Source of the DNA: Halovivax gelatinilyticus
GTDB lineage: Archaea > Halobacteriota > Halobacteria > Halobacteriales > Natrialbaceae
Direction: 5' to 3'
Assembly: GCF_024300625.1 (NCBI RefSeq)
Contig: NZ_CP101322.1
Span: 1,067,992 to 1,131,991 of the forward strand
Length of the DNA: 64,000 bases
The notes under the pieces were generated by a model. That model made no database searches, was not told the DNA's origin, and saw nothing but the letters and a program-made list of their open reading frames with translations. Every line of letters starts with the position of its first letter. Within the stretch, counting starts at the first letter, position 1. Positions 58,077 through 59,427 of the stretch are shown here, piece by piece. A program made the translations under genes and the position numbers.

Positions 58077-58679
58077 TCAGAGTTCCTCGATGCTCCCGTC
58101 GGAGGGCCGCTCGCGGAAGACGTGTCCTTCGAAGAGCGTCACCCCGACGTCGTCGTCCTGCCAGGCGGTCGGCGGGAGGCCGGCTTTGCGACAGGTTCGA
58201 TCGAGATACTCGCGCTCGGTCCAGCCGTGTTCGACGGGGACCGTCGGGTAGAGCCAGCCGCCGTCGCCGCGACCGTCCACTGCGACGCCGTGTTTGCCGA
58301 GTTCGAGGTCCGCGAGCGGATCGTCGGTGAGTAGAATGTTCCGGACGGCACAGACGGAGACGGTCAGGTTGTCGAGTTCAGACGGCGTGACCTCCGAGCC
58401 ACAGGAGTCTGCGCTCGCCGCCTGGATCGCCGCGTCGACGATGACGTGGCCGAGCTGGTCGTCCGAGCGGTAACCGCCGGCACAGCCGCGGAGGCTGCCG
58501 CGGCCCCGAGTGGACTCGAGGCGGACGAACGCGCCCGTTCGCTCGTAGAAGGCTTCACGCATGCTTCCCGGATGTTCTCGTTGGCCGTGCCGTACGAACG
58601 CTTCGACGGCCTCGCGCGCGAGTTCGACGGCGCGAGCACCGTCTTCGTAGGAGAGATCGACCCCCTGTCCCTGGGACAT
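58077..58679 (-). CDS. AMMECR1-domain protein (TIGR00296 type)
   Basis: The 200-residue protein has the AMMECR1 core: GAFVRLESTRGRGSLRGCAG with LRGCxG motif, SADSCGSEVTPSELDNLTVS and WLYPTVPVEHGWTEREYLDR. This conserved domain is found in archaea and eukaryotes; its enzyme activity is not established as far as I know. The ATG at 58679 starts a normal N-terminus. It reads away from the RNase P RNA gene, with about 100 bp between them. Confidence 0.88.
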   Translation of the reverse strand: MSQGQGVDLSYEDGARAVELAREAVEAFVRHGQREHPGSMREAFYERTGAFVRLESTRGRGSLRGCAGGYRSDDQLGHVIVDAAIQAASADSCGSEVTPSELDNLTVSVCAVRNILLTDDPLADLELGKHGVAVDGRGDGGWLYPTVPVEHGWTEREYLDRTCRKAGLPPTAWQDDDVGVTLFEGHVFRERPSDGSIEEL

Positions 58680-58751
58680 ACAAGAGTAAATGGGGATTAA
58701 CACCCAAAAGCGCTTCCCTTCGAGAAACCGGCAAGGGTTGCCGACCGCGAT

Positions 58752-58760
58752 CCCTAAATG
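58752..58760 (+). promoter_or_regulatory. TATA box of the RNase P RNA gene
   Basis: CCCTAAATG is centred at about 58757. The first base of the predicted P1 strand (58784) is 27 bp downstream, the standard archaeal spacing, which supports that start. Confidence 0.6.
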
Positions 58761-58783: not shown

Positions 58784-59427
58784 GGGTGAGAGAGCCCGGC
58801 TGCCGCGTCGTGCGCCCCGGCAACGGGGCGCTCGGAGACTCCACAATGGAGAACGGGTGTCGGCCGCCCTGGAAGCCACGGTCGACACCTGCACCGTGAC
58901 CGCGCCCAAAGCCGGGCCTGGTCACGCCAACAGCGCACTACCGCGGTGCGTCGACGACGGCTTCGGCCGTCGGATACCGAGAGGTGACGCCCCAGGGCGT
59001 CTCTCGGACCAACGTGGTTTCGTCCCTTCGGGACGGGCCACGCCCGCGAGGAAAGTCCCCCCACCCGCCGGACGGGTGACCGGACGCAAGTCCGGGACGG
59101 GAGACCGTCGGCTCTGGAACAGAAACGACACGTCTCGGCCCGACCGATGAGGCGCGCGAACCCGACCGCGAGGAAGGGGAGTTGACCCGCCGAGGGAATA
59201 TGCGAGGCGGCGTACGCCGCCGACCGAACCGTCTCAGTCGTTCGACGCGACGGATCGTGTCCGTCACGATCGAGACGGAGACGGCCGAGGATCGATGGAA
59301 CGGCGAATCCTCACCGGTGCAAGTCCGCGTCGCTGGTAGTCCGGCGATGCCGCGGTGCAGACCGCGGGCGATGCGGACGCTCAGCCAAATGCCGGGGAGA
59401 ACAGAAGGGGGCTTACTCCTCTCACCC
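58784..59427 (+). ncRNA. rnpB: RNase P RNA, with an enlarged P2-P3 region
   Basis: The core motifs are clear: CR-I GAGGAAAGTCCCCCCACC (59050 region), CR-II-like GGAACAGAAACGACACG, CR-IV-like CCTCACCGGTGCAAGTCC and CR-V AACAGAAGGGGGCTTACT (59399-59416). P1 is GGGTGAGAG (58784-58792) with CTCTCACCC (59419-59427), 9 bp, and P2 is CCCGGC (58795-58800) with GCCGGG (59391-59396). CR-I begins about 250 nt after P2 instead of the usual few tens. The gap folds into several hairpins, e.g. GCGCCCCGGCAACGGGGCGC and CGTGG...CCACG (P3-like). It is the RNA of RNase P, which trims tRNA 5' ends. Confidence 0.92.

Follow-up and report, generated by a model that had tools for sequence, protein, structure and literature searches.

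An enlarged multi-hairpin P3 domain in the RNase P RNA of Halovivax and a variable hairpin array at the same site in Natrialbaceae

The RNA of archaeal RNase P is usually portrayed as shrinking while proteins took over. RNase P RNAs in genomic sequence range from 250 to 550 nt (PMC7191817). Growth of the archaeal RNA at P3, named ES3.1, and growth at P12 in Halobacteria have already been described (PMC12974513). In Methanocaldococcus jannaschii, the short P3 stem of each monomer carries Rpp30 of its partner, and dimerisation is important for activity (PMC6565675). The gene analysed here is the rnpB of Halovivax gelatinilyticus, found in a window of 64,000 nt (contig NZ_CP101322.1, positions 1,067,992 to 1,131,991). 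Its RNA spans 644 nt, and that of one relative reaches 824 nt. The median rnpB in our survey is 461 nt, and the Halovivax RNAs are about 1.4–1.8 times the size of those of typical relatives. In the open literature we found neither a tandem hairpin array nor a multi-hairpin P3 described for haloarchaea; older comparative work was outside this search and priority is not established. The best explanation of the whole, to which we assign a probability of about 0.75, is that this is the sole archaeal RNase P RNA gene of the genome and that its P3 has expanded in a lineage-specific way.

The identity of the gene was examined with the archaeal covariance model RNaseP_arch (RF00373), as had been recommended with the original prediction. 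The model recognised rnpB with 110.6 bits against a gathering threshold of 84, and this was the sole match in the genome (3.70-Mb contig). Besides the score, the RNA has a P1 and P2 that pair end to end and adjoin CR-V, and a P3 between P2 and CR-I. Among the archaeal protein subunits (Rpp30, Pop5, Rpp21, Rpp29 and L7Ae), the search covered Rpp30, which exceeded its cut-off in each of the five Halovivax genomes, so that an archaeal protein subunit accompanies the RNA. The protein-only RNase P, HARP, was below the cut-off in the same five genomes. Since Rpp30 is present and HARP is under the cut-off, RNase P catalysis in Halovivax probably depends on this RNA alone. A relaxation of constraint through a protein-only enzyme was also considered and was rejected on the HARP result.

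P1 (9 bp) and P2 (6 bp) pair across the RNA without mismatch, as predicted, with a span one nucleotide shorter than the 645 nt first given. CR-I starts 264 nt from the P1 start, close to the distance of about 250 nt that had been pointed out as unusual. The ends were compared in 203 distinct haloarchaeal rnpB with locatable P1, CR-I and CR-V, gathered from search loci and from regions extracted from genomes. Pair 3 of P1 covaries in this set (GC 114, CG 72, UG 8, UA 7), and pair 2 is GC in 179 and AU in 21. Pair 4 (58787/59424) is an A.A mismatch in 177 of the 203 and a U-A pair in the five Halovivax only. The TATA box proposed in front of the 5' strand was recovered as well, with a TATA-like sequence starting 27–31 bp upstream of P1 in 195 of the 203. 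The closing helix of P3 is fully paired (4/4) in 191, its third pair being C-G in 138 and U-A in 65. The covariation of P1, the promoter and the P3 closing helix together place the extra sequence within P3, and from them we infer a mature 5' end at 58784. The Rfam match begins at 59030 because the model has a short 5' arm, and the P1 of its alignment contains several non-standard pairs. Therefore, this start is a model artefact and offers no competing P1; annotation based on Rfam sets the 5' end of the gene 246 nt too far downstream. Compared with dinucleotide shuffles, the fold of the whole RNA has a z score of –7.2 and that of 58794–59052 has –5.2. The structure of the 5' domain is above chance level. 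The features are collected in Table 1.

Table 1. Positions of the rnpB features and of the neighbouring gene within the window
Feature	Position	Strand	Remarks
Divergent neighbour gene, presumably AMMECR1-like	58077..58703	-	Conserved; synteny anchor
TATA-like box CTAAAT	58754..58759	+	-30 to -25 relative to P1 start; equivalent position in 195/203 haloarchaeal rnpB
P1 5' strand GGGTGAGAG, putative RNA 5' end	58784..58792	+	Perfect pairing with 59419-59427
P2 5' strand CCCGGC	58795..58800	+	Pairs with 59391-59396; GCCCGRC in 5/5 Halovivax
P3 closing helix 5' strand CGCG	58804..58807	+	Pairs with 59045-59048
Hairpin P3a	58808..58835	+	Fold; common to Natrialbaceae with expanded P3; family-wide match over first 43-50 nt
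Hairpin b, Halovivax-specific	58839..58851	+	Found in four species; one compensatory pair
Hairpin c, Halovivax-specific	58854..58891	+	Strongest covariation: 13 pairs, 5 two-sided changes, four species
Hairpin d	58895..58926	+	Outer stem CGUGACC/GGUCACG and flanking linkers sequence-conserved, four species
Hairpin e	58933..58951	+	Hairpin at this site in 4/4 species; A-U replaced by G-C, C-G replaced by A-U
Hairpin f, 7 bp, UUCG loop	58955..58972	+	Position kept in four species; sequence unalignable
Hairpin g	58977..59007	+	At this site G030 has a canonical 29-nt unit
Hairpin h, 30 nt	59013..59042	+	Adjoins CR-I; last Natrialbaceae array unit; family-wide match to last 44 nt
Rfam RNaseP_arch match	59030..59427	+	110.6 bits; 5' end displaced downstream by 246 nt
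P3 closing helix 3' strand CGCG	59045..59048	+	Pairs with 58804-58807
CR-I / P4 5' strand GAGGAAAGTCC	59048..59058	+	Sequence and Rfam alignment
P2 3' strand GCCGGG	59391..59396	+	Pairs with 58795-58800
CR-V region ACAGAAGGGGGCTTA	59401..59415	+	Sequence and Rfam alignment
P1 3' strand CTCTCACCC, putative RNA 3' end	59419..59427	+	Pairs with 58784-58792

In the window RNA the closing helix encloses 237 nt in place of a short loop; P3 is present and enlarged. The enlarged domain of about 245 nt is a multiloop with eight hairpins (P3a and b–h), in agreement with the stable stems that had been noticed in the extra sequence. The extra sequence had been described as an insertion between P2 and CR-I. 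It does lie there, within P3, but its treatment as a single anomaly was too narrow, for relatives carry zero to five hairpins at this place, and Halovivax represents the extreme of this variation. Among the readings first offered, that of a lineage-specific P3 domain fits best, with the hairpins inside a covarying closing helix and common to four of five Halovivax species.

The five species are G000 (the window species), G029, G030, G031 and G032. The distance from P1 to CR-I is 264, 277, 278 and 306 nt in the four with the enlarged P3. These are the four longest values of all sampled, and the fifth species, G031, has 181 nt. The total length of the four RNAs is 644–824 nt, with G030 at 824 nt. 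When the first half of the domain was folded separately for each species, hairpins P3a, b, c and d were alike in all four. With RNAalifold and a pair count over the four species, 97% of cells were paired as compared with 32–43% after sliding, a control that favours the structure because it was derived from those same four sequences. Seven pairs show two-sided changes, mostly in hairpin c, and 6 of 500 shuffles scored as high. Two more compensatory positions were seen by eye in hairpin e; f and g keep their site and differ in sequence. Covariation is thin for hairpins e–g because the Halovivax-specific hairpins occur in four sequences only. R1, a covariance model built on the first half, gave 136–154 bits in the four species and 40 bits in G031; elsewhere in the 125 genomes it gave at most 37 bits, with some matches at rnpB. 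The best match of the insert to a known RNA family was 15.9 bits, below threshold. The loop of hairpin c (GAAGC) and the linkers flanking hairpin d (CUGCACC and CGCCAACAGC) are conserved in sequence while the stems vary. We argue that the conservation around hairpin d exceeds what neutrality needs and points against dispensability of that part.

At the same site, Natrialbaceae carry zero to five tandem hairpins of about 29 nt with a spacing of about 36 nt. P1 to CR-I measures 83–232 nt in most other Natrialbaceae and 29–99 nt in the other haloarchaeal families sampled, a non-random set in which 25 low-scoring genomes were deliberately included, so that the length ranking is valid for the genomes sampled. 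The Natrialbaceae values cluster at about 44, 90, 125, 161, 198 and 232 nt, and the folded hairpin count rises in step. A typical unit of 29 nt has 6 bp, usually a C.C mismatch, about 6 bp more and often a UNCG-type loop. In the last unit, taken by position without a pairing filter (92 distinct sequences), the outer stem is 84% and the inner stem 88% paired, and the maxima in 500 re-dealt controls were 71% and 74%. A separate unit set had been filtered on outer-stem pairing, and its 100% outer pairing is by construction. The exact degenerate pattern of the unit has 65 copies in 43 of the 125 genomes, all at rnpB, and its reversed control had zero matches in the 125. The window P3 fits this array, which is recognised by P3a and at least one unit of about 29 nt before CR-I, through hairpin h. 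Comparison with related haloarchaeal loci, suggested as a further check, found P1, the promoter and the closing helix kept and the number of P3 hairpins variable. In two records, both named Natrinema hispanicum (L081 and L128), the same three hairpin types occur in rotated order, A-B-C in one and B-C-A in the other, a hint that such arrays recombine internally. Three genomes of another family, f7 (L242, L243 and L262), have P3a and one array-like hairpin, with 88–91 nt from P1 to CR-I; because of them, the array may predate Natrialbaceae.

The remainder of the window RNA is enlarged too, separately from P3. CR-I to CR-V takes 368 nt in the window, 506 nt in G030 and 530 nt in G062, as compared with 267 nt in the most compact relatives. 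In the cores of L034, L035 and L036, this part contains hairpins whose internal loops repeat a sequence of the type GGUUCGGAG...CGAGAACC. Several Halovivax RNAs have one or two such hairpins in their specificity domain, and the recurrence is possibly a duplicated protein-binding motif.

G031 is the sister of G000 in the rnpB-core tree (99/94) and, moderately, in the neighbour-gene tree (85/73). Because G031 is nested in this way, a reduction is the best reading of its shorter P3. The expansion most likely arose before the genus split, with part of it lost in G031. This shortening, together with the variation from zero to five hairpins in relatives, indicates that much of the P3 domain may be dispensable, and the shorter P3 of G031 is our argument that this holds for the middle of the domain. 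Boundaries, structure, conservation, variation of the array and reduction in one species were all documented by comparing sequences. The following course of events would account for them. The array in Natrialbaceae would have grown via local tandem duplication and recombination. In the Halovivax ancestor it would have diverged and grown further, with later partial loss in G031; hairpins g and h would correspond to array units, and b–f are counted as Halovivax hairpins. Transcription would start from the P1-proximal promoter, and the expansion segment is probably retained in the mature RNA. The hairpins would project outward from the P3 apex, with P1, P2, the closing helix and P4 keeping their normal geometry and Rpp30 presumably still docking at the closing helix. 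Preservation of the closing helix would explain why the expansion is tolerated, as a permissive and near-neutral segment. This account of an expansion segment, including array growth, retention and the permissive mode, is considered likely as a whole.

A shorter RNA of about 400–430 nt, starting at 58990–59030 with the upstream hairpins as a leader or an unrelated element, would agree with the coordinates of the Rfam match. It is highly improbable, as the P1 of that match mispairs and the upstream P1, closing helix and promoter are conserved even where P1 to CR-I is only 29–40 nt. Hardly more can be said for a mobile repeat inserted in rnpB. One hairpin type is indeed repeated and its unit sequence recurs across genera, but exact-pattern matches are confined to rnpB in the 125 genomes (diverged copies would escape an exact pattern) and with R1 the genome of the window yields no additional copy. 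A search of a plasmid collection gave no match. Some other RNAs are fragmented by the removal of such inserts, and the inserted hairpins could be transcribed and then removed by the BHB splicing endonuclease or another RNase; the structure is large, self-contained and at a permissive site. Matches to the strict BHB geometry are, however, at shuffle level, with one in G000, outside the insert, and none in G029, G031 and G032. G030 (rnpB locus L033) has four, as compared with 0–2 in shuffles, and they are common to no other species; one of these four BHB-like geometries has both strands in the 5' domain. Relatives with one or two hairpins would require the same excision. The suggestion that the insert is processed out found no support, in that the window RNA has no prominent BHB and the species of the genus have none in common, and we regard removal as improbable.

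The strongest competitor is a functional module, namely an extra haloarchaeal protein site or a cis substitute for the trans contact between P3 and Rpp30 in the dimer. Rpp30 of the other monomer contacts P3 in M. jannaschii (PMC6565675), and expansions of P3 and P12 elsewhere bring protein sites (PMC12974513). The conserved loop of hairpin c and linkers of hairpin d amid variable stems point in the same direction. On the other hand, G031 is without most of the middle, the copy number in relatives runs from zero to five, and the partner is putative. This reading is thus unlikely, and it is similarly doubtful that the Halovivax P3 is a selected module altering the holoenzyme architecture and built from an array that varies among close relatives. 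If it were true, the architecture would have been changed through an added protein site or a replaced P3–Rpp30 dimer contact. The trend is opposite to the usual picture of the archaeal RNA: growth to 644–824 nt, with zero to five array copies across Natrialbaceae and, in Halovivax, a derived P3 of many hairpins. The natural series of P3 sizes can be used to study the acceptance of new modules by an essential ribozyme and any effect of P3 size on dimerisation.

Compared with the RF00373 family, CR-I, CR-V, P1, P2, the P4 region, the score above threshold and the single copy are all alike. The difference is in P3, a short hairpin in the family and an eight-hairpin domain in the window RNA. The P12.1/P12.2 growth in Halobacteria (PMC12974513) is also a lineage-specific haloarchaeal enlargement, but at another site. 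ES3.1 of archaeal and eukaryal RNase P RNA (PMC12974513) likewise grows at the P3 end. By its description, the ES3.1 growth comprises an internal loop and a single helix, whereas the Halovivax domain is a multiloop with many tandem hairpins. Expansion segments of rRNA, too, grow as hairpins from a closing helix that stays conserved, and they vary among close relatives. They belong to another RNA, and in the rnpB array the repeat unit and the steps in copy number are recognisable.
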